Shown here piece after piece: positions 21,416 through 36,837 of a stretch of 64,000 bases of DNA. Source of the DNA: Oscillatoriaceae cyanobacterium Prado104 (GTDB taxonomy: Bacteria; Cyanobacteriota; Cyanobacteriia; Cyanobacteriales; Microcoleaceae); NCBI GenBank assembly GCA_025454405.1, contig JALOON010000003.1, positions 124,001 through 188,000 of the forward strand, in the 5' to 3' direction. The notes under the pieces are model-generated. The model saw only the letters and a list, made by a program, of their open reading frames with translations, made no database searches and had not been told where the DNA came from. Made by a program: the position numbers and the translations under genes. Position 1 is the stretch's first letter; each line of letters begins with the position of its first letter.

Positions 21416-22318
21416 TTACTTGTTACCTGACTCAGTTTCCTTGCGTTTCTTCTTTGATGTTTGTTTGCGAGTTTTTGGTTGCGGGATTATTTCTGCTTCT
21501 TGCAAGGTGGCATTTTCACTCGATTCGTACAAGTCATTTAAAGCAAGTTTTTGCTGCGATACCAGTTCGTTGAGCAAGTTTGAAGCTGTTTCTAATATTT
21601 TCTTACCCTGCCTGACTTGAATTGTAGTTTGATGTTCGATCGCATCTAACAAAACATAAATCGAGACTGTTTGCCAAACATCTAAATCGTCGCCAATAAC
21701 ATCGCATTTAGACACTATTTTACCAGATTCCGGTACGTGAATCCCCAAACCGGATGCTTGAATTAAGGGCTGAATTTCTGCTATGCTTAAATCGGCAAAA
21801 TCGGCAATTTGATGTTGCAGGGATATTAAATCTGCTAAATCCGGCAAGTCTGTTGTTTCTGCTGCTAAAGGCTCAAAATGAAAGCTAATAGTTTGGTTTA
21901 GCGGATCGGAAACTGCATAAATCGATCGCACTTGCGCTTGACTGACTCCGCCTTTATCGAAAAAATTTCGTCCTTGCGGCGCGATCGAAATTTCCCCGGT
22001 TGCCCCAATTTCCAAAGTATCTAAATTTGCCAGATTTGTTGCCGTACTTTTCACAAATATCTCGTCTAAACCCAACAAATCCGCCAATTCTGTCAGTGTC
22101 GGCGCGGGGACAAACTCAATTGCTGCCCGCAAAATGAATTCTTCAAGTACGTTAAACTCGCGGGGTTCGCTAACGGCTACTTCCAAGGGAGTTTGCCGCA
22201 CTGCCAAGCGGAATTGACGCGCTGCCAACACTGACAAACCCGGATTTTGTTGCTCGATTTTTGCAACTATTGAAGTTAAATTAGGGTCGATCGATTTAGT
22301 CGGTGACGCTGGCAACAT
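21416..22318 (-). CDS. Unknown protein overlapping the large helicase gene
   Basis: A 300-residue soluble protein I cannot assign. Residues about 45-125 have a helix-turn-helix rhythm (FNVLEEFILRAAIEF, LTELADLLGLDEIFVKSTATNL, ISIAPQGRNFF) that resembles a winged-helix domain. The C-terminus is very basic (KTRKQTSKKKRKE), suggesting nucleic-acid contact. Its ATG lies 23 bases inside the end of the upstream helicase gene, a translationally coupled arrangement, so the two almost certainly act together. An adaptor or DNA-targeting subunit for the helicase is my inference. Confidence 0.65.
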   Translation of the reverse strand: MLPASPTKSIDPNLTSIVAKIEQQNPGLSVLAARQFRLAVRQTPLEVAVSEPREFNVLEEFILRAAIEFVPAPTLTELADLLGLDEIFVKSTATNLANLDTLEIGATGEISIAPQGRNFFDKGGVSQAQVRSIYAVSDPLNQTISFHFEPLAAETTDLPDLADLISLQHQIADFADLSIAEIQPLIQASGLGIHVPESGKIVSKCDVIGDDLDVWQTVSIYVLLDAIEHQTTIQVRQGKKILETASNLLNELVSQQKLALNDLYESSENATLQEAEIIPQPKTRKQTSKKKRKETESGNK

Positions 22319-25300
22319 CTACAAAACCTCCGCAGCGGCGCACTGTTTTTGAAACTTCTTGATACATTTTTCCGACTGTACCTGTTTGTTGGGTAAATAA
22401 ATCGTGGCAGCCGACAACTACCAGCAATTCTTGGGCGCGGGAAAATGCCACGTTGACCCGTTCCGGTTCCTTGGCAAATCCAATGTCTCCCCTACTATTA
22501 TTGCACACCGTGCTGACAATAATTACAGGTCTTTCCATGCCTTGAAAAATATCAACTGTTCCGGTGCGGATGCTCAATGAGGGAAATTTTTCCAATTCTA
22601 TTCTATCTTGAATTGCGTTCAATTGCGCGCCGTAAAACGTGATAATTCCGATTTCTTTGGGAGGTTCGCCCGCAGCAACTTGCGGTTGCCAAGCTGTTTC
22701 CATTTGCTCGCACAAACGTTCGATCGCATCTATTTCTTTCCAATTCAATCGCGAAGTTCCTTGTTTTTCTTCTTCAAATCCGGGGGCGATCGGCGTTTTT
22801 ACCCAAATAATATGATTGTCTGGTTTAATAATTTTACCAGACAAATTGTGAGCGCGTTTGACATCGGGTTCTTGAATGCCGCAAGTAAGTTTTTCGTCGT
22901 AAAATTGATTGATGGCACCCATAATCTGCGGGTGCATGCGATACTGAGTTGTCAGCATTTTTTTGATGCTGTTGCTGGCATTTTCAAACAATACTTTAAA
23001 CAGCGATTGTTTGATAAATTCTAGTTCGTCTCCCGTACAGCCGATTTCTTCAGCAATATCCCCGATCGTACCTCGATCGAACATGGGCGGCAACTGTCTG
23101 TGATCGCCCACCAAGACTAATCTTTTGCCTTTCAATGCGGGAATTAACAACTCTGGCGGAGTGCATTTGCTAACTTCGTCGATGATGACTGCATCGAAAC
23201 TGGGAAAGTTTTTGGCAAACTCGAAACTCGCAGCTTGCACGCAGGTGATGCCGATGACGTTGGCATTGTCGATGTAAATTTGCCTTAAATCGTTTTGGTC
23301 TTTTTCTGAGGGATTGCGGAGTTTTTGAATCCAGTCGGTAACGAATTTTTCCGATCGCTTTAATTCTGCTGTATCTCGCTGCAATTCGCCCTGCCAACTG
23401 TCGAATTGCTGCTGGATTTTGCGCAGAAACTTTAAGTCGAACAATCCTTTATCGGGAACATCCGCTTTGTATTTTTCCGGGAGAGTTTGCCACGCCGACT
23501 CCCACCAACTGCGGCTGGCAATTAACTCGGCTGTTGGCTGTTGCTGTTGCAGCCGATCGCAAATTTCCCTCATTTCTTGCTGCAATTCTTGCAGTTGCTG
23601 TTGCGCAGTATCCGCTGCAGCTTGCAGGGGCGATAAAACTTCGCTAAGGCTGTTTTTGATATGTTCTAAAACACCAAACGGATCTAATATAGCGATCGAA
23701 CTTTCCAACTTAATCGCACTGGCTTTCCAAGCATCGATTTGCTTGATAAACTGCTGCGGCTGTTCCCAAATATGCGATGTTTTGGCGAGATACTGTCGGG
23801 CTAAATCCCGCAAGTTTTCCGGCATATTTGACTGTTGGGTAATGGCTTGTAGCAAGTTAGTAACTTCGCCAATCTTTAACTCAATTTTTTGTTGGGCTGC
23901 ATCTATCTGCTGCTGGATGGCGGATATTTCCTGCTGGTTAAAACTGAACTCTAGTCTCTCCAATAATTGTTGCTGTTTTTGAAGCTGCTGTTCGGTTTCA
24001 AATTTCAGCGGTTTCACGATTTCCCTGGCATTTCCCAAAATAACATGCAGCAATTCTTTTGCCGTTCGATCGACTGCAACTTGCAAATTATTGGGCTGCG
24101 ACAATTCCCGAGAAATTTCTTGAACTTTGTCTAACAAAATCCGAGTTTTTTCGATTACCAATTTGCGCCGATCGCCCCGCATTTGAGTATAATTAGCAAA
24201 GTCCGTTTCCAATTGCTGCCACAGGGCGCGATCGTCTGGTAAAAGGACGATCGGAGTTTGACTGAAATTCAGGCGCAAAAATTCGTTAAACCGAAATTGC
24301 TGCCCTTGAATGTTCTGACAACCGCCGTTTTCTTCATGGAATAATGCTTTTTGCAACCTCTCCAAATCAGGCAAATTAACGCGGCATTTCGGCGGGACGA
24401 TCGGCATTCTGAGCGATCGGGCAATTTTCAGCAATCCTGCTGGCAATTCTACCATAGTATCTGCTAGCAATTCGCCTGTTTCCCAGCAAGATTTGATGGC
24501 TTTATCTAATTTACTATCCGCTGTTTCGATCCATTGGGCAACGGCAACAACAACTTCCGCAATTTCTGCTTGGCGCTGTTGCAAATTCTGAATTTTTTGT
24601 TCGAGATTTTGGCGGTAAGTTTGATTTTCGCGATCGCCCAATTTTAGTTGAGTCAAGGCATCAGAATGCTTGCGGGAATTTTGCCTTAATTCTGCAACTT
24701 CCGCCATCGCTTTGCAAGCATTACTAGCGCCGTTAAATGCTGTCAGAAATTCCGGGATTTTGGGCGCTACATTTTCCCGCAACCAAACAGCAATCCCGAA
24801 GGAACCGCAATTAGGGCGATCGAACCCAATTTGAGTAGCATTAGTTGCTGCAACCCGCACGTTTGCCATAAAGTTTTCTACTAAAATATTGCCCTCTGAA
24901 TGCGGTTTGAGTCGGGGCATAAACTCGCCAACTTCGGGAGATTCCCAGTTGACTTGCGGCGCGTTCAGTAAATTTGTCAAGCCGGAAACCAAAGGTTCAA
25001 ATTCGCTTTTTTTTGCTGTTATTTCTAAATGGGTTGTCTCGATTTCACCGATTTTTGCTGCGAGTTCTGCTTGGCGATCGAGCAAGTGTTTCTGCTGTTT
25101 GTAAAAAGCTTTTTCGGCTGCCAAGTAACTTGTAAATTGCTCGGATTCAGCCAGCAACTGCTGCAAATACTTGACATTATTTTGACGCTGTGCTAATTTT
25201 TGTTCGCAGTCGATCGCCGTATTTTGCAACCAAGTGCCGATCGCGTTTTCTTCTAAAAACGGCTGCCCTTCTTCCTGCACCTTATGGGCTTTTCCCTTGC

Positions 25301-26600
25301 GCAAAGCCCGAATTGCGGGATTGTGAACTAACCTGCTTAAAGCATTATCTACTGCCAAATTAGCTTGAGAAGCAATTAAAGTTTTGCCGCCCAAACTGGC
25401 AATTTGATAGCAAATTTCCGCAATTACTGTTGTTTTTCCCGTTCCCGGCGGCCCTTGAATTAAAATTAAATCTCGCGCGGAAAGTACCATTTCAACAGCC
25501 GCAATTTGGTCGGGATTGGCATTGCGATTTAACAAACATTCCCGTTCCAATTTTACGATCTTTTTGGGCGATCGCGCTTGGGAAGCATCGAATAAAAAGT
25601 CGCTCAAATGAGGATTTTGAGCGCGCCCGTCTGCCAGCATTTTTAAAGCTTTTTTCTTGCGATCGATCTGGCTGAGATCGCCAGCAGCTTCAAAATACAA
25701 AAATCCTTGTTTGGGCAAATGAAATCGATCGCCCGCCATTCTATCTGCTAAATCCGCATCTAATTTAACTCGCAACTTGCTGCGATCGAAATCAATTTCG
25801 GCAACAGTTCCTAAAGTTTCTCCGTCTCGGCTGCTTCTGCCTCTAAGTTCCGAATCAAACAGGATAATTTCTTCATTGCGCGCCTTTTTCAACCTTTCGC
25901 GAAAGTCGCCAATTTGTAAGGAATTTTCCTCATAGCCGTCAAGAGTTGCGGAATTGGCATCTATTTCAAAAGTGACGATTTTCAGGCCGGAACCGTAATT
26001 ATGTCCGCGAAAACGCACGCAAAATTGACGGGCTGCTGCAATGCGTTCTTCTACTTTTAAAAAAGCGTTCCAAACTTTTAATTGTTCGTTAGTTGGAATG
26101 TGCCTGTCTTCCCAAAATGGCAATTTTTGAATGCGGGCGATCGACTTCGGCGGAATCGGCGATCTGTTGTTAGTTAAAAGTCGCAATTTAACTGGCAAAA
26201 CATACCCATCTTTTCTACCTCTGGGGAGGGGAACAAAGCCTGCATCGAGCAATTTTAAGCCGCCAATGCCATCTTCAATGCGTGCAGTTGCCAGCAAGCG
26301 CAAAGTGCGATCGGCTTTTTGCAATAATTCGGGCAATTCAAAATCATCTCGATCTGTAGCGACAATTAATTCCCAGATTTCTTCTTCCGAAAATCTCTCA
26401 TTTACCTTTTGGCGGCGCAGGTAGAAAAGATTGTGCGATTTTCCGGCAATTTCGGACATCAAAATTTCGGCGCGTTCCCTGCATTCCCAATCGCAATATT
26501 TTGCTAAAGCTGCTTCTCCTTCCAGATCGCGAATAAACTTATTAATAGCGCGATCGCCCGCAAATTTATATCCCCAATCTTCGGTTATTAAAGAAGGCAT
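22296..26600 (-). CDS. Very large SF1 (UPF1/DNA2-like) helicase
   Basis: A 1434-residue superfamily 1B helicase. Walker A is GPPGTGKTT at about residue 381. Motif Ia follows (LIASQANLAVDNAL). Motif II is DEVSK at about 1138 (DEAS in most relatives), followed by LVGDHRQLPP. Motif III/IV includes TTQYRMHPQIM. Motif V is VDIFQGMERPVIIVST and motif VI is RVNVAFSRAQELLVVVG. About 750 residues separate motifs I and II, far more than in UPF1, and much of this is Gln/Leu/Glu-rich coiled coil. The first 370 residues are unassigned. The gene is followed by an overlapping partner. RNA or DNA processing, or defence, are all possible. Confidence 0.85.
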   Translation of the reverse strand: MPSLITEDWGYKFAGDRAINKFIRDLEGEAALAKYCDWECRERAEILMSEIAGKSHNLFYLRRQKVNERFSEEEIWELIVATDRDDFELPELLQKADRTLRLLATARIEDGIGGLKLLDAGFVPLPRGRKDGYVLPVKLRLLTNNRSPIPPKSIARIQKLPFWEDRHIPTNEQLKVWNAFLKVEERIAAARQFCVRFRGHNYGSGLKIVTFEIDANSATLDGYEENSLQIGDFRERLKKARNEEIILFDSELRGRSSRDGETLGTVAEIDFDRSKLRVKLDADLADRMAGDRFHLPKQGFLYFEAAGDLSQIDRKKKALKMLADGRAQNPHLSDFLFDASQARSPKKIVKLERECLLNRNANPDQIAAVEMVLSARDLILIQGPPGTGKTTVIAEICYQIASLGGKTLIASQANLAVDNALSRLVHNPAIRALRKGKAHKVQEEGQPFLEENAIGTWLQNTAIDCEQKLAQRQNNVKYLQQLLAESEQFTSYLAAEKAFYKQQKHLLDRQAELAAKIGEIETTHLEITAKKSEFEPLVSGLTNLLNAPQVNWESPEVGEFMPRLKPHSEGNILVENFMANVRVAATNATQIGFDRPNCGSFGIAVWLRENVAPKIPEFLTAFNGASNACKAMAEVAELRQNSRKHSDALTQLKLGDRENQTYRQNLEQKIQNLQQRQAEIAEVVVAVAQWIETADSKLDKAIKSCWETGELLADTMVELPAGLLKIARSLRMPIVPPKCRVNLPDLERLQKALFHEENGGCQNIQGQQFRFNEFLRLNFSQTPIVLLPDDRALWQQLETDFANYTQMRGDRRKLVIEKTRILLDKVQEISRELSQPNNLQVAVDRTAKELLHVILGNAREIVKPLKFETEQQLQKQQQLLERLEFSFNQQEISAIQQQIDAAQQKIELKIGEVTNLLQAITQQSNMPENLRDLARQYLAKTSHIWEQPQQFIKQIDAWKASAIKLESSIAILDPFGVLEHIKNSLSEVLSPLQAAADTAQQQLQELQQEMREICDRLQQQQPTAELIASRSWWESAWQTLPEKYKADVPDKGLFDLKFLRKIQQQFDSWQGELQRDTAELKRSEKFVTDWIQKLRNPSEKDQNDLRQIYIDNANVIGITCVQAASFEFAKNFPSFDAVIIDEVSKCTPPELLIPALKGKRLVLVGDHRQLPPMFDRGTIGDIAEEIGCTGDELEFIKQSLFKVLFENASNSIKKMLTTQYRMHPQIMGAINQFYDEKLTCGIQEPDVKRAHNLSGKIIKPDNHIIWVKTPIAPGFEEEKQGTSRLNWKEIDAIERLCEQMETAWQPQVAAGEPPKEIGIITFYGAQLNAIQDRIELEKFPSLSIRTGTVDIFQGMERPVIIVSTVCNNSRGDIGFAKEPERVNVAFSRAQELLVVVGCHDLFTQQTGTVGKMYQEVSKTVRRCGGFVDVASVTD

Positions 26601-29021: not shown

Positions 29022-29076
29022 GCGAACAGGTAAATTGTGCTATTTTATGAAGAAGTGAAATTTGAGGAAAGGCAAA

Positions 29077-29661
29077 ATGCTGTCATCTCCGATCGTACTG
29101 CGAATGCCGCCGCGCTTGCAAATGACAGAGGACGAATTTTTTGATTTTTGTCAATTAAATCGCAACCTGCGAATCGAACGCAACCAGCAGGGAGAATTAT
29201 TATTGTTGACTCTTGTTGGGGGAATCACCAGCAACCGCAATGCTATCTTAACCGGAGAACTGGGAATCTGGACAAGACAAGATGGAACGGGAATTAGCTT
29301 TGCTTCTTGTACGGGATTTACATTATCGATCGGCTCCGTGCGATCGCCCGATGCTTCTTGGATTAAACTGGAAAGGTGGAATGCTTTATCAAAAGCACAG
29401 CAAGAAAAATTTGCTCCGATTTGCCCGGATTTTGTAGTTGAACTAAGACCCGATTTTGAGGATTTAGAGCACCTGCAAGAAAAGATGCAAGAATATATGA
29501 GGGAACCCGGCGTGCGACTGGGATGGCTGATAGACCGCAAAAATCGCCGAGTTTACATATACCGTACCAATTTGTCAGAGGAATGTTTGGAAAATCCGGC
29601 GACAGTCAGCGGCGATCCGGTTTTGCCGGGATTTGTACTCAATATGAACGAGATTTGGTAA
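29077..29661 (+). CDS. Uma2 family (DUF820) putative nuclease, second pair, copy A
   Basis: A 194-residue Uma2 protein. The start at 29077 (MLSSPIVLR) follows GAGGAAAGG. The core is LQMTEDEFFDFCQLNRNLRIER, then RSPDASWIKLERW, FVVELRP and MREPGVRLGWLIDRKNRRVYIYR. In the position of the usual MSPTG motif it reads LLTLVGGITSNRN, a local divergence not seen in copy B, so this copy could be changed in function. It lies 36 bases upstream of copy B and is a different subfamily from the 13-14 kb pair. Confidence 0.88.
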   Translation: MLSSPIVLRMPPRLQMTEDEFFDFCQLNRNLRIERNQQGELLLLTLVGGITSNRNAILTGELGIWTRQDGTGISFASCTGFTLSIGSVRSPDASWIKLERWNALSKAQQEKFAPICPDFVVELRPDFEDLEHLQEKMQEYMREPGVRLGWLIDRKNRRVYIYRTNLSEECLENPATVSGDPVLPGFVLNMNEIW

Positions 29662-29697
29662 ACTGAAGTATGGCAGCAGCGATCGGGAAAATCAATT

Positions 29698-30282
29698 ATG
29701 TTGGCATCAAGAATCGTATTGCGAATACCGCCAAAATTGCAAATGACAGACGACGAGTTTTTCGAGTTTTGTCAAATCAATCGCGAATTGCGCATCGAAC
29801 GCAACAAATCGGGAGAATTGCTAATTATGTCACCCACTGGTTCGGAGACGGGAAATAGAGAAGGCAATATATTCGGGCCGCTGTGGGTGTGGTCAGAAGC
29901 AGATGGTACTGGTTTATCATTTACTTCAAGTACGGGTTTTACTTTGTCAACAGGCGCAGAAAGGTCGCCGGATGCTGCTTGGGTAAAGTTGGAAAGATGG
30001 AATGCTTTGTCACCGGAACAACAGCAAAAATTCGCCCCGATTTGCCCGGATTTTGTAGTTGAATTGAGGTCGGCTTCTGACAATCTCAAGCCATTGCAAG
30101 AAAAAATGCAAGAATATATGAGAGAACCAGGAGTACAGTTGGGTTGGCTTATAGACCGCAAAAATCGCCGAGTTTACATATACCGTCCCAGTTTGCCGGA
30201 GGAATGTTTGGAAAATCCGGCAACAGTCAGCGGCGATCCGGTTTTGCCGGGATTTGTACTCAATATGGGTAAAATTTGGTAG
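29698..30282 (+). CDS. Uma2 family (DUF820) putative nuclease, second pair, copy B
   Basis: A 194-residue Uma2 protein with the canonical motif LLIMSPTGSETGNREGN, then ERSPDAAWVKLERW, CPDFVVELRS and GVQLGWLIDRKNRRVYIYR. All family features are present. The C-terminal 70 residues are almost identical to copy A, while the N-terminal half differs more, which suggests partial gene conversion. Likely a PD-(D/E)XK-fold nuclease; substrate unknown. Confidence 0.88.
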   Translation: MLASRIVLRIPPKLQMTDDEFFEFCQINRELRIERNKSGELLIMSPTGSETGNREGNIFGPLWVWSEADGTGLSFTSSTGFTLSTGAERSPDAAWVKLERWNALSPEQQQKFAPICPDFVVELRSASDNLKPLQEKMQEYMREPGVQLGWLIDRKNRRVYIYRPSLPEECLENPATVSGDPVLPGFVLNMGKIW

Positions 30283-31440: not shown

Positions 31441-34035
31441 TTAGCCTCGCATCAAAATAGCCTCGATTTGATTTTGTATTTGTTCCAATTCCCGGCGTTT
31501 GTCAGCCAGCCAAGCTTTTTCGGCTTCGGATTTTGCTCGATCTTGTCGATCGAGCTTTTCCTGCTGTTCCAATAAATTCTCCCACAGTGAGATCGCTTGG
31601 TCGATCGCACTGCTAGCTGCTTCATATCGATCGTCAAATACCAAGCTAATTCTTTCAGTTATTTTATCAAAAATTGACTCCGAATTTTCCTGAAATTTCT
31701 CAAAGCCTAACTCGCAAACTTTTTGCTTGATCTGGTTATGAATTCCATCAACATCTAGCATTCCCAATCCAAATGCGCCACCCCCACCAGCAGCTAAGGC
31801 AGCCAAAATAATTGGAATAATACCAACTCCTAAAAACACCAATCCCGCCGCTACTAATCCACCAAGGCCTATACCGCCAAGATAACCTCCAGGACCTCCA
31901 ATATCTGAAATCGATGAAGCGATACCGCTTCCACCGATGCCAATTCCGCCCATATTACCTGCGGTCTCCCAATTATTAAATTGACTAACCAGGTTACTAC
32001 TCCGTTGCATATCGAACTTTTGAAACTCCTGCCGAATTGCATAAATATCTTCATTGATTTGGTTATTTAAAACAGTCGCATTTTGTTGTAAAATTGCTTG
32101 GATTTTTTGATTTGCCCAATATTCTATTTCTTTGGTTATGTCTAGGACAAATTGATTAGAATAATCTTTAATTAACTTGTTTTGACTCCAAATATGATTG
32201 TGTTCTGAAGTCCATTGAGAACTTTTTGCAATCAGGCGTCTTTTTAATCCTTCCACCCATTGATTCCAAGATTCAAGAGTTTCGTCTAAAGATTGCTGCA
32301 TCAATTCATCCGCTAAAAGTTTGATTTTCACATCCCGGCCGCTTACTTCCGCAATTTGTTCAAAAATATTCGCCTTATCTCCTTGAGAAACTGTCAATTT
32401 TCCTTCTAACATCTCCCGATATTGATTCAATTCATCGCAGCCAGTATTAATAATTTGCTTGATTCCGGCGGCGGATTGCTGAAGTTCGATCGCCCCTCGT
32501 TCAACTGTCAAAAACTGTTCCAGAGATTTGGTAAAATCCTGAAAAGATTTCAGATACTCATTCTCCGTTCCATCCAAAATAGCCTCCAGTGCAGATTGAG
32601 CCGAGATAAAATGAATCCGGTTTTCACCCGCGATCGCATTTTGACTCTTAACAATCGTTTCTACCCTTTGTCTTACCTGCTTGCGGCTTTCTTCCCGACG
32701 CAGCAAATCCGCAAAATTAACTAAAACAAAAATACTCTTCGCACCTTCACCATCTTTACCGGGATTCAACTCTTTTTTCAAATACAAAAGCAGTTCCCGC
32801 TCTTTTTCTGTCAAAGCATTTTGAGCGTGAGTCAAGAAAATCACCGCATCAGTTGTTTTGAGAACTTGTTCGGTGACTAACGTGCGTTCCGCTTGTTCGT
32901 TCAATCCGGGAGAATCAATAATTTCAACTCCATTGCGGCACAATTCGAGATTCGGATGCTCGAAACTGATTTCTTTGATTTCTGAGTTGACAATTTCATC
33001 TCCAAAAGAACCTAAAGCCGCTTCCTCAGAAATTGAAGCTTTCTCTTTGTATTGCTGTGGTGAAATCTCTTCCTCGCGGCCGTTTTTGTATTTGCAAATA
33101 ACTCGCTGCTGCGGCCCGTATTTCAAAACAGTCACCGTACCGCTACAGGGAATATCCCGCACCGGTTGGATTTCCTCACCTAACAAAGCATTGAGTAAAG
33201 TTGATTTGCCTTTGCTGAACTCGCCGACAACAGCAACGCGGAAACATTGAGATTCTAATTTACGAGATATTTTTGTGACTTCTTCTGTTAAATTAGGAGA
33301 TATGACGTTGCGATCGCTCCCATCTTGCAGGGTTGAATACAGCGGCTGACAAACAGCATTCAGTTGTTGCCTGTACTCCTGAAATTTTTTCAACTCCTGA
33401 TATGATGAAACTGAATGCTTTTGATTTGTTTTGTGTTTCGGTTTTGCTGGCAAATGTTGGAGAATGTGACTGGCTGCGCGGACAAACATCGCATCGAGAA
33501 ATTGAAATTGTGCCGGATCTAGTAACGATCGCACTTTTTCTAAAGCTGCTGTATCTTCGAGCGCCCTACTGCTAAAACTCGCCTCCAAAACAGTCAAATA
33601 TCGCCCATCGATTCCGAGTCGATCGGCAAGGTTTTTCAAATACTGTTTTTCGCTCTCGTCCATCGTTCCATCTGCCGCCGACATCTGATATCCAAAACTA
33701 ATTAGCAGCAGTTTTTCCTCATCAGAAAAACAAGCTGTCAGCGCCAACAACACCGGAAATTTATTGTAAACTTGATGTTGCGCCACGCTTTTAACCATTG
33801 GCATTACCAATTTTTGCAAGCTGTTATTAGCAGGAATAAGTTCCCTCAAAGTTGTCACCAGTTGCTGCTTTTCTTCAGCGCCAAAAGTACCGTCGGCATT
33901 AATGACTCCCAGCAACACAGTTATCAGCGCCGCCAGAAACAGAATCGGAGGATTAATATCCTCTTTGCGGATGTTTTGCCCTGTCAGCCGCGAAACAACC
34001 TCAACAGTTTGCGAACTAATTAGCGAAGTGTCCAT
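31441..34035 (-). CDS. Dynamin-like GTPase with TerB-like N-terminal domain
   Basis: An 864-residue protein. Residues about 80-190 look like a TerB-type helical domain (LLLISFGYQMSAADGTMDE, KYLKNLADRLGIDG). The GTPase has G1 GEFSKGKSTLLNALLG at about 267-282, G3 DSPGLNE at about 374 and G4 LVNFADLL at about 438, the layout of bacterial dynamin-like proteins. Long helical regions follow, with a Gly/Ala/Ile-rich membrane segment at about 720-770 (GLVAAGLVFLGVGIIPIIL) and a basic C-terminal coiled coil (DRQDRAKSEAEKAWLADKRRELEQ). It probably binds and remodels membranes on GTP hydrolysis. It shares an 85-base divergent spacer with the ACP-fused gene. Confidence 0.85.
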   Translation of the reverse strand: MDTSLISSQTVEVVSRLTGQNIRKEDINPPILFLAALITVLLGVINADGTFGAEEKQQLVTTLRELIPANNSLQKLVMPMVKSVAQHQVYNKFPVLLALTACFSDEEKLLLISFGYQMSAADGTMDESEKQYLKNLADRLGIDGRYLTVLEASFSSRALEDTAALEKVRSLLDPAQFQFLDAMFVRAASHILQHLPAKPKHKTNQKHSVSSYQELKKFQEYRQQLNAVCQPLYSTLQDGSDRNVISPNLTEEVTKISRKLESQCFRVAVVGEFSKGKSTLLNALLGEEIQPVRDIPCSGTVTVLKYGPQQRVICKYKNGREEEISPQQYKEKASISEEAALGSFGDEIVNSEIKEISFEHPNLELCRNGVEIIDSPGLNEQAERTLVTEQVLKTTDAVIFLTHAQNALTEKERELLLYLKKELNPGKDGEGAKSIFVLVNFADLLRREESRKQVRQRVETIVKSQNAIAGENRIHFISAQSALEAILDGTENEYLKSFQDFTKSLEQFLTVERGAIELQQSAAGIKQIINTGCDELNQYREMLEGKLTVSQGDKANIFEQIAEVSGRDVKIKLLADELMQQSLDETLESWNQWVEGLKRRLIAKSSQWTSEHNHIWSQNKLIKDYSNQFVLDITKEIEYWANQKIQAILQQNATVLNNQINEDIYAIRQEFQKFDMQRSSNLVSQFNNWETAGNMGGIGIGGSGIASSISDIGGPGGYLGGIGLGGLVAAGLVFLGVGIIPIILAALAAGGGGAFGLGMLDVDGIHNQIKQKVCELGFEKFQENSESIFDKITERISLVFDDRYEAASSAIDQAISLWENLLEQQEKLDRQDRAKSEAEKAWLADKRRELEQIQNQIEAILMRG

Positions 34036-34120
34036 TTGCCGCGCCTTTAGATAATTTTTTTTTATTTAATGTATCATAATTGATTAGTAATTCTTTGGGT
34101 ATGTTACGGGGTAAAAATCG
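34036..34120. promoter_or_regulatory. Divergent promoter between the dynamin and ACP-fusion genes
   Basis: An 85-base, very AT-rich spacer (a run of nine T near 34056-34064) from which the two large genes are read in opposite directions. Shared control is likely. No operator motif can be named. Confidence 0.55.
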
Positions 34121-35701
34121 ATGATGAACTTTGTATTTCCCCCTGCGGTACAGGCTGCGATCGAGGCTGGCAAGTACGTACAAGTGTTTACATCCGCTGG
34201 AGTGCCGATCGGCATGGCGAGAGATGCAGCGACGGGACAGTTTGCTGCCAATGCCGTTGGCGCGGTTGTCAACAACAGCCCGCTATCGCCATTAGTCTCT
34301 CCCGTGCAGCTTGCAATGGGCGGCTTGCAGATGTACCAAAACCACATGGGCTTTCAAGCCGTGCAAGCGAGTTTGGGGGTGCTGCAAGCGACAACAGCCG
34401 TCATTGGTGTGGGAGTTGCGGCTGGGGTAGCTTTGTCGGCGGTAAATTTACACCAAACATTGAAACTAAAAAAAGCAGTAGAAAGGCTGGATGTTAAAGT
34501 TGAAAATGGTTTCATCAATTTAGAACAACTTTTGAAAGGGCAAGGATCGGAAATTAAGCAATTAATTGTCCAAGTTGTCGAAGAGATGAAATTTGAGAAT
34601 CACCGACTTGTTTTAGTGCGGGCTTACGGGTTATTTACGCAAGCAATTCAACGAATGCGATCGGCCTTGCAATTGCAAGATATCAACCGCCGCAATGCGG
34701 AAATTGATGCAGCGCGGGGGATGTTGTTTGAGGCTTTAGCAGACTACAGAAACCCGCAGTTGTTGTCAGAAACTTGCGCGGCGGGACAGTTGCGGCGGTT
34801 AGAGTGCAGTTGGGCGATCGAGCAAAGTATTATCGCGACTTATCAGGTGCAAAATGAATTTGGGGCGGCGGGCGATCGGCTTGCTCAATTGCAGCAAGAA
34901 ATCCGTCAAGATGGCATCAATATCGTACAATGCTGTGACTCCGACGAAGAGCTTGATTTTCTATTTCCTGAAATCGCGCGAATTCACAACCACGATTTAG
35001 CCGGATTAGAGATTTGGTTTAATCAGATTGAATGGACGAAAGATTTGCCGCCAAGTGAGTTAAAGCAGTTGCAAAGTGCCGATTTCAGCAAATCAAACTT
35101 GGCTGTTGTGGAGGATAAAAAATCAGCCGTAACAGCTTTAGCAATACCCGACGAACAGTTATTTTATGAGAATTTGAGGCCGAAGTCTCATTTTTATGCG
35201 CTTCGCACTCAATTGGAATTGATGCTGGAACCGGAGCGACGTGAAGATTACGAAGATTATATCATCGAGCAAGGGGAAATAGCGGGTCATAAAAGTTTAG
35301 TAGCGTCGAATTTGGAAAAAGCCTCTGATTTGGCTGTTGCTAATCTCTTTTACTACTTCAGAGTTCGAGATGAATCGGAAGATGAATTAGAATTAGAGTT
35401 CGAGGGAACTACAACTGCTACTAATAGCATTGCGACGGAATCTTCCGCAAGCGATCGAGTCAAGCAGCAAATTTATGAAAAAGTCAAAGTCGTTGTTGCC
35501 AAGCAACTAGAAGCTGATGCAAGTAAAGTCACCATCAACGCTAATTTTGCCAATGATTTAGGAGCCGATTCTCTGGATGCAGTAGAGCTAGTCATGGCGT
35601 TAGAAGAGGAATTCGACATTGAAATTCCCGATGAAGTTGCGGAGAACATAGAAACAGTTCAACAAGCTGTTGATTACATTTACAAAAAAGTTGCTGTTTA
35701 A
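34121..35701 (+). CDS. Unknown membrane/coiled-coil protein with a C-terminal acyl carrier protein domain
   Basis: A 526-residue protein. Residues about 60-120 include a Gly/Ala/Val hydrophobic stretch ([18 protein letters not shown]) and then a coiled coil ([23 protein letters not shown]). A helical middle follows. After a Ser/Thr linker near residue 440, residues about 450-526 are a complete ACP domain: [30 protein letters not shown] with phosphopantetheine Ser484, then [14 protein letters not shown]. It closely matches stand-alone cyanobacterial AcpP, so the Ser is probably modified. I know no function for the N-terminal part. The divergent dynamin neighbour suggests a shared membrane role. 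fabG, 2 kb away, is probably unrelated. Confidence 0.8.
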
Positions 35702-35768
35702 AAAGAAAAGACCGTTAACACCCCGTAAGTTGGGTATGACTGAGATCTTGTACGCATTTCAACAATCC

Positions 35769-35850
35769 TGTAGGGGCGGGTTCGCCAATGGCTTTGAAGC
35801 TTGCAGATAGGTTAAAGAAACCCGCCTCCACCCCACAAATAACCCTCAAA
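35769..35850. repeat. GGGGCGGGTTT / AAACCCGCC dispersed repeat
   Basis: GTAGGGGCGGGTT at the left and AAACCCGCCTCCACCCC at the right form an imperfect inverted repeat around about 50 bases. Copies of the family also occur at 11391, 39593 and 51746. The spacer continues with GTTGGGTTTC and TTGCAAGATGTCAGG motifs that recur at 27640 and 51828. Confidence 0.75.
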
Positions 35851-36013
35851 GACCTCCTCTATTGAGACTGTTGCAAGATGTCAGGTATAACGAAGTGAAA
35901 CCCCAACGAAAAGTAACAAGTAGTGTTGGGTTTCGTTCATCGACATAGTTGGTGGTGGCATGGGCTAATACCCAAAAAAAACTTTGAATTTATAAATACG
36001 GAGCGATCGCAAA

Positions 36014-36355
36014 ATGGATGAATTTGTTAGAAAAGCAGCAGCACTAGGATTACCCGCAATTATGCTGGTAATTGTGATGGCAACTACAGGTTTAGCAGGT
36101 GCGGCTGCAATTACAGCAGCTTTAGCAGCTTTAGGTGGCCCAGCAGGTATGTTAGGCGGAATCGCACTGCTTGGAATCATCGGTTTAGCTACAGAAATGT
36201 TGTCTAAATACGGTCTTGAAGCGTTGCTAATTGCCATTTACCGACAGCGCATTCAAAACGGAGAATCAAGATCTGGTATCTGCAAAGAAATTCGCAAATT
36301 ACCTATCTCTAGAGAGTTAAGACTCAGACTTGACGAAGAGTTGGGCTGCCAATAG
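36014..36355 (+). CDS. Small Gly/Ala-rich membrane protein
   Basis: A 113-residue protein I do not recognise. Residues about 10-65 are hydrophobic and Gly/Ala-rich (IMLVIVMATTGLAGAAAITAALAALGGPAG), like two membrane helices with small-residue packing. The Gly-rich tail resembles the membrane segment of the dynamin-like protein at 31441. The C-terminus is basic and soluble (YRQRIQNGESRSGICKEIRKLPISRELRLRL). It follows the ACP-fusion gene by 312 bases on the same strand. A role with the GTPase is a guess from position and composition. Confidence 0.6.
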   Translation: MDEFVRKAAALGLPAIMLVIVMATTGLAGAAAITAALAALGGPAGMLGGIALLGIIGLATEMLSKYGLEALLIAIYRQRIQNGESRSGICKEIRKLPISRELRLRLDEELGCQ

Positions 36356-36447
36356 AGAAGTAGAATTAAGATTCATAAATCCTCTGTTTCTCAACGCATC
36401 AAGAAGTATTAGCCCTGTCATTTTTAGTACAACAATAATCAAAGAAA

Positions 36448-36784
36448 ATGAAGTCAAAATCAGTTACGCAAATCAGCGGTCTTCCCGGTCAATTAGTCGG
36501 TGTAGTTCCACTCCGAACCAGTGGTACAGGAACTATTAAAATAGTTGGGGAAACCTTACAAGGAAATTTTACTTCATTTTTTGGCTTTTGTTGTCAAACA
36601 GCGTTATATTGTCATTTACACGAGTACCATTAATCTGATTCTGTTTGGAAACAACAATGATAAACTCAACCTGTTTCGCAATGAAATTATAGAAGCTTGT
36701 CGTCCCAAACAGAGCTATATGCCCCGATCTTCTCAGCCTGCACCCCCACCACCTTCTTTGCCAAAGCGATCGACAATGAGCTAA
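36448..36784 (+). pseudogene. Remnant of a small gene, frameshifted
   Basis: Frame 1 from 36448 reads a Gly/Thr-rich segment (QISGLPGQLVGVVPLRTSGTG, then IKIVGETLQGN) and stops at 36633. Frame 2 then continues with plausible protein (FLAFVVKQRYIVIY, LFRNEIIEACRPKQSYMP) to 36784. Together they look like one small gene broken by a one-base shift near 36570. The family is unknown; a remote similarity of the first part to NfeD-type beta-barrel domains is only an impression. Confidence 0.35.
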
Positions 36785-36837
36785 ATTTACTAGGTCGATC
36801 GCTCTTGATAGCAACTGTTACTAATCGGCTCGAAAAT

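Follow-up and report, generated by a model that had tools for sequence, protein, structure and literature searches.

Between positions 31,441 and 36,355 of a 64,000-nucleotide stretch of the genome of Oscillatoriaceae cyanobacterium Prado104 (assembly GCA_025454405.1, contig JALOON010000003.1, forward-strand positions 124,001 to 188,000; hereafter the window) lie a gene for a dynamin-like GTPase (DYN), a divergently oriented gene for a fusion protein (FUS) that ends in an acyl carrier protein (ACP) domain, and a gene for a small glycine- and alanine-rich membrane protein. The preliminary description of this locus, made from the sequence alone, had reported the three open reading frames (ORFs), two of them with their sizes, the 85-base divergent gap, and the TerB, GTPase and ACP domains, all of which are borne out by the ORF coordinates and by Pfam. 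The features, in window positions, are as follows.

31441-34035, minus strand: DYN, dynamin-like GTPase with an N-terminal TerB domain, 864 residues (ORF, Pfam and BDLP1 match)
33601-33930, minus strand: TerB domain of DYN, residues 36-145 (Pfam PF05099, E 1.8e-12)
32785-33237, minus strand: Dynamin_N GTPase domain of DYN, residues 267-417, with G1 and G3 motifs (Pfam, E 5e-28)
31444-32358, minus strand: helical neck/trunk of DYN (the stalk), residues 560-864, common to the headless partners described below (profile comparison)
31801-31857, minus strand: hydrophobic, paddle-like segment of DYN, residues 727-745 (hydropathy only)
34036-34120, no strand: divergent intergenic region, 85 bases between the start codons (ORF coordinates)
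34121-35701, plus strand: FUS, fusion protein made of an adaptor core and an ACP, 526 residues (ORF)
34121-35395, plus strand: adaptor core, FUS residues 1-425 (alignment of 31 sequences)
34367-34423, plus strand: single hydrophobic segment of the adaptor, FUS residues 83-101 (hydropathy)
35480-35680, plus strand: fused ACP, a PP-binding domain, FUS residues 454-520 (Pfam, E 2e-14)
35570-35572, plus strand: ACP attachment serine, Ser484 of FUS, in a DSL motif (sequence)
35397-35883, no strand: tail region with no equivalent in L190, a close relative (DNA comparison)
36014-36355, plus strand: small Gly/Ala-rich membrane protein, 113 residues, with two hydrophobic segments, accessory (ORF and hydropathy)

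Among solved structures the best match to DYN is BDLP1 (2j68), found by phmmer with an E value of 7e-25 over DYN residues 213-579, and a comparison of the DYN stalk profile with the BDLP1 trunk gave E 0.0019. The fused ACP scores 105.5 bits against NCBIfam TIGR00517, for which the cut-off is 70.45, and is 71% identical to the AcpP of the host. The adaptor core matches no Pfam or NCBIfam family at cut-off. A coiled-coil match of the adaptor in a profile search of the PDB, with a best E value of 0.009, was taken as chance.

The pairing of the two genes was assessed across 122 fetched adaptor loci, including L003, L004 and the window, mostly picked for long matches and with one duplicate dropped; the core is complete in 112 and incomplete in 10. 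Any member of the dynamin/stalk family lying no more than 1.5 kb from the adaptor was counted as its partner. Such a partner accompanies 109 of the 112 complete cores, divergently in 106, with a median divergent gap of 117.5 bases, and 1 of the 10 incomplete ones. As for the three complete cores that lack one, the locus ends at a contig edge in L124, the partner lies about 1.5 kb off in L309, and another gene pair stands in place of the dynamin and the adaptor N-terminus in L195. Clustering of the cores at 80% identity gives 53 clusters, all of which contain the partner family; the next neighbour family is in 8. The window genome itself encodes a second adaptor (C117), 44% identical to the first, which likewise has a divergent, headless partner. 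Adaptor and stalk also diverge together (r 0.69, a value matched in 0 of 2000 permutations), although shared ancestry alone could explain this. A peptide scan with the whole of FUS matched the adaptor only in L003 and L004 of the 80 loci kept, the others being ACP matches.

The pairing of adaptor and dynamin or stalk is thus not accidental, and the two genes form a real conserved unit. This sustains the conserved pair of the preliminary description, which had set against it a scatter of fusion homologues mostly without a dynamin neighbour; the neighbour count among cyanobacterial adaptor loci contradicts such a scatter, though 38 of the partners are stalks without a GTPase.

A script labelled the partners in the 112 loci as TerB-GTPase-stalk (52), GTPase-stalk (6), TerB-stalk (7), stalk only (44) or none (3). 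The stalk-only partners are mostly of uniform size, 38 of the 44 having 325-425 residues (14 clusters), and the six shorter ones look broken or deleted; four of the seven TerB-stalk genes look whole (L203, L204, L310, L313), the other three being short pieces, at a contig edge or with a frameshift. In a single profile comparison the stalk-only proteins matched the window stalk with a probability of 99.7 and an E value of 4.9e-26, and the TerB-stalk type aligns with full-length DYN with the GTPase domain missing (E 1.4e-75). Both kinds are homologues of the stalk only and lack the GTPase domain; since their profiles match the dynamin stalk, we regard them as headless dynamins. Mapped on a 43-adaptor tree, the stalk-only state takes four changes, of which strong branches force two. 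All 57 GTPase-bearing partners tested have the G1 and G3 motifs and, by a loose definition, G4. By hydropathy, no membrane-like segment is found in 43 of the 44 stalk-only partners, and the adaptor has a hydrophobic segment in 101 of the 112 loci. To judge from these comparisons, the GTPase is not the core of the pair; its constant parts are the adaptor and the stalk.

The C-terminus of the adaptor is the variable part of the second gene. Of the 112 loci, 15 have a tail of more than 60 residues. An ACP is fused to the adaptor in 11 of the 122, and four carry a long tail (L118, L188, L189 and L192, in the last behind a degenerate ACP), which contains a full Gly-rich segment in L188 and L189 and is matched by PADLOC PDC-M09A (E 1.5e-12); in L288 the long tail is encoded as a separate downstream gene. 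The more distant locus L291 has a GUN4 tail instead (E 1.8e-32). Turnover is evident among close relatives, since L118, 90% identical to the window, carries a different tail. In close relatives without an ACP directly after the core, homology to the window ends at 35382-35471; in L190 it ends at 35396 and restarts at 35884, with a weak 20-base match at 35717-35736 in between. L004 and L122, with 94% DNA identity over the compared stretch, diverge at about residue 415. The attachment serine is kept in eight of the 11 ACPs, has been lost by insertion in L119 and L192, and is changed to phenylalanine in L286. A branch separates all 11 fused ACPs from 58 stand-alone ACPs (ultrafast bootstrap, UFB, 91; SH-aLRT 79; 96/94 with only seven fused rows), which makes the fusion look old and retained in several lineages. 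A single ancient capture with later losses would fit this tree; on the 43-row adaptor tree the presence of ACP is scattered, with seven changes against a shuffled mean of 6.6. From the sequences, the ACP is one of several exchangeable tails and not the core of the adaptor.

The small membrane protein had been described as a third component. It is indeed Gly/Ala-rich and of membrane type, and it is an accessory, following the adaptor in six loci. It matches no Pfam or NCBIfam family, and its PADLOC matches are weak (best PDC-M09A, E 0.004); its weak likeness to the Gly-rich segment of the long tails is between Gly/Ala-rich sequences and was computed without composition correction. In 13 of 18 close relatives compared, a shared homologous block starts at window 31452-31466, in the last dynamin codons. 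Homology to the left flank was found in 0 of the 18 within the DNA fetched, and the right flank at 36410-36803 is common to 7 of the 18. At window 36448-36803 there is a remnant of a gene for a membrane protein of about 155 residues, which is whole 3' of the adaptor in relatives including L118 and L119.

Of 386 genomes of the phylum, 38 have the adaptor core, 37 have the dynamin stalk and 31 have both, with the stalk match lying away from the adaptor in G048 and G064. The core is present in 133 of 388 genomes of the order, a sample that is not random because it takes in the whole family. In the genus of the window, 26 of 29 genomes carry an adaptor of the headless kind, making it near-core there (the partner was seen in the 19 that were fetched); an adaptor with a GTPase-bearing dynamin occurs in 12 of the 29, and three more have a truncated adaptor without a dynamin. 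Searches of plasmids, phages and viral contigs gave no match. In some 18 of the 122 loci, one gene or both seem to be broken. The ratio of nonsynonymous to synonymous substitution rates (dN/dS), from 11 pairs, is 0.12-0.26 for the core and 0.10-0.78 for the ACP; among the window and four close relatives it is 0.14-0.25 for the core and 0.30-0.78 for the ACP, the latter being under weaker constraint in this group.

Transfer of the pair from one family to another is indicated when the adaptor is compared with two housekeeping proteins encoded in the window, PrmA and FabG. The adaptor of the window is 86-89% identical to those of G203, G416 and G410 in the same genus, 86% identical to those of G442 and G470, which belong to another family, and 83% identical to that of G457, in a third family. 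PrmA is 88% identical to the window in the three genomes of the genus and 73, 73 and 70% in G442, G470 and G457, and FabG is 93-96% identical in the former and 84, 84 and 80% in the latter. The identities of PrmA and FabG thus do not follow those of the adaptor.

Several neighbouring genes deserve mention in their own right. In one genome (L120:8633-9097, minus strand) a CdiA_C toxin-domain gene (E 7e-9) lies 64 bases 3' of the adaptor, with two small genes behind it on that strand, and in L203 the adaptor is followed by a gene that appears HNH-like by eye and has no Pfam match. A free-standing TerB gene (L147:14467-15000, plus strand; E 1.2e-7) is found a few genes from a headless pair, and its family occurs in 14 loci of three clusters. 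In three genomes of the genus, a gene for an ATPase-like protein of about 580 residues (L195:2397-4715, L126:10301-12628, L197:2496-4217) stands in place of the dynamin and part of the adaptor N-terminus; each is preceded by a gene for a 191-residue protein, which was tested in L195 and has a weak Mrr_N match there, and the breakpoints differ. Elsewhere in the window, about 5 kb from the pair, a 1434-residue helicase with AAA_11 and AAA_12 domains is encoded on the minus strand at 22296-26600 and matches parts of the PADLOC MkoA model (E 1e-111), and two tandem ORFs of 199 and 194 residues, much alike and Uma2-like by eye, lie on the plus strand at 29062-30282. The window genome also has three more dynamin-like matches in a row (G000:C156:7773-13895).

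What might such a pair do? The reading that we prefer, with a probability of roughly 0.55, is that of a two-gene membrane scaffold in which a dynamin stalk and a membrane-anchored adaptor, usually driven by a GTPase, are joined to a swappable docking tail. One gene would supply the protein built on the stalk (TerB-GTPase-stalk in the window) and the other, usually divergent from a short shared region, the helical adaptor. We propose that the stalk and the adaptor core assemble into a hetero-oligomer at the membrane, anchored by the membrane segment of the adaptor, because both persist while other parts come and go; an association of the pair with membrane or lipid is plausible. The GTPase head, when present, would drive assembly or remodelling and the headless versions would be static scaffolds, with the head, the tails and TerB, a domain that may have a sensing role, acting as modifiers. 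The adaptor C-terminus may then be an exchangeable docking or sensing tail, whether ACP, GUN4 or the long tail with its Gly-rich membrane segment, that ties the scaffold into the metabolism of fatty acids or tetrapyrroles. Both pathways, represented by ACP and GUN4, make building blocks of the thylakoid or photosynthetic membrane, which suggests that the tails dock the scaffold to membrane biogenesis.

Some observations weigh against this scaffold model. Three partners in core-complete loci lie upstream on the adaptor's strand, so that divergence is not universal, and the GUN4 tail was seen once. The absence of the serine from three of the 11 ACPs rules out a general acyl-binding role. Tails occur only with GTPase-bearing partners when loci are counted (15 of 59 against 0 of 42, p 1.4e-4), an association that is not significant by cluster (7 of 30 against 0 of 16, p 0.08). 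AlphaFold models from alignments of three sequences were poor (mean pLDDT 42.4 and 47.5) and, given this low confidence, were not used for the fold of the adaptor; with a poor model Foldseek returned nothing below E 0.001, the best match being 2j69 at E 0.047. The pairing, its orientation, the homology of the headless stalks to the dynamin stalk, the GTPase motifs, the turnover of tails and the movement of the pair between families are shown; contact between the two proteins, their action on membranes and the meaning of the tails are inferred.

A rival reading is an anti-phage or other conflict system whose dynamin would work on membranes during infection, with the adaptor's interchangeable tails serving as baits or effectors. 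The distribution is patchy both in the phylum and, where the adaptor is paired with a GTPase dynamin, in the genus; the pair appears to be transferred horizontally, its tails turn over among close relatives, and some loci look broken. A CdiA_C gene directly follows one adaptor, PADLOC LeoA and PDC-M09A match DYN and the long tail, respectively, and Bacillus DynA is cited for phage resistance in PMC10104851. Nevertheless, in a scan of 150 of 154 selected neighbours no PADLOC family was found in more than three proteins at E 1e-15, a count that has no control set, the pair is missing from the mobile elements searched, and the near-core headless adaptor of the genus is unlike a typical defence gene. 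We therefore think a role in conflict possible but unlikely. By analogy with the integrated decoys of immune receptors, one could go further and envisage a new dynamin system, a stalk-and-adaptor machine with an optional head that travels between families, whose tail cassette (ACP, GUN4, membrane tail and perhaps toxin modules) would be a bait or sensor of lipid and pigment metabolism; this we would regard as a long shot.

Coupling to lipid synthesis, with the ACP supplying or sensing acyl chains for the dynamin, is what the preliminary description had favoured, making the ACP the functional centre. The window ACP keeps its DSL serine and is 71% identical to the host AcpP, and the grouping of the fused ACPs looks like that of an old fusion retained in several lineages. 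These points are outweighed by the rarity of the domain (11 of 122 loci), its absence or replacement in close relatives, the three lost serines and, among the window and its four close relatives, the weaker constraint on the ACP than on the core, so that an ACP-centred mechanism is very improbable. That the pair merely reflects an accident of gene order can be all but dismissed: neighbouring genes can stay together in related genomes, but here the partner is retained in every cluster while other neighbours vary, and the second adaptor of the same genome, 44% identical to the first, has its own divergent headless partner.

How does the pair compare with known dynamin systems? By its GTPase domain with P-loop and DxPG motifs, DYN is a bacterial dynamin-like protein. 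Like BDLP1 of Nostoc punctiforme (2j68/2j69), it combines a GTPase domain with G1 and G3 motifs, a helical stalk that may be homologous to the BDLP1 trunk, and a hydrophobic paddle-like segment; unlike BDLP1, it has an N-terminal TerB domain, its partner is a non-GTPase adaptor rather than a second dynamin, and many members of the system have no GTPase at all. LeoA/LeoBC, the paired dynamins whose system name is Eleos, provide another parallel, in that a dynamin belongs to a conserved gene pair and DYN resembles PADLOC LeoA (E 7e-23). The window pair is divergent, however, and not an operon, DYN scores 26.3 bits against the NCBIfam LeoA family, for which the cut-off is 325, and the Eleos/LeoABC arrangement of two adjacent dynamin-like GTPases is not found, the adaptor having no GTPase domain. 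The fused domain resembles AcpP in scoring above the TIGR00517 cut-off, but differs from it as a covalent adaptor tail that can lack its serine.

Cyanobacterial dynamins have been divided by sequence and neighbours into KGK, Tandem A, Tandem B, HSR1, chaperone and unclassified groups, as outlined in the text of PMC5827413. The present system is likewise defined by sequence and conserved neighbours, but, compared by description only, it appears to fit no clade described there: no group is credited with TerB or with a helical adaptor in divergent orientation, the main text never uses the word "TerB", and the Pfam families listed for the 150 neighbours, 25 out of 163, include no KGK, HSR1, DnaK or second-dynamin family. 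Members of the present system may sit in its unclassified group. Among the matches listed, open-access titles and the beginnings of abstracts hold no description of a TerB-dynamin, an ACP-dynamin pair or PDC-M09. Bacterial dynamins are usually paired with a second dynamin, according to PMC6104087 and PMC4159319. Here the constant partner belongs to a different, unnamed protein family, and the pair is kept after the GTPase has been discarded. The headless pairs would represent a natural separation of scaffold from motor, giving a handle on the role of these cyanobacterial dynamins, and the swapping of tails between a fatty-acid carrier and a tetrapyrrole-binding domain offers a testable link to the building of membranes.

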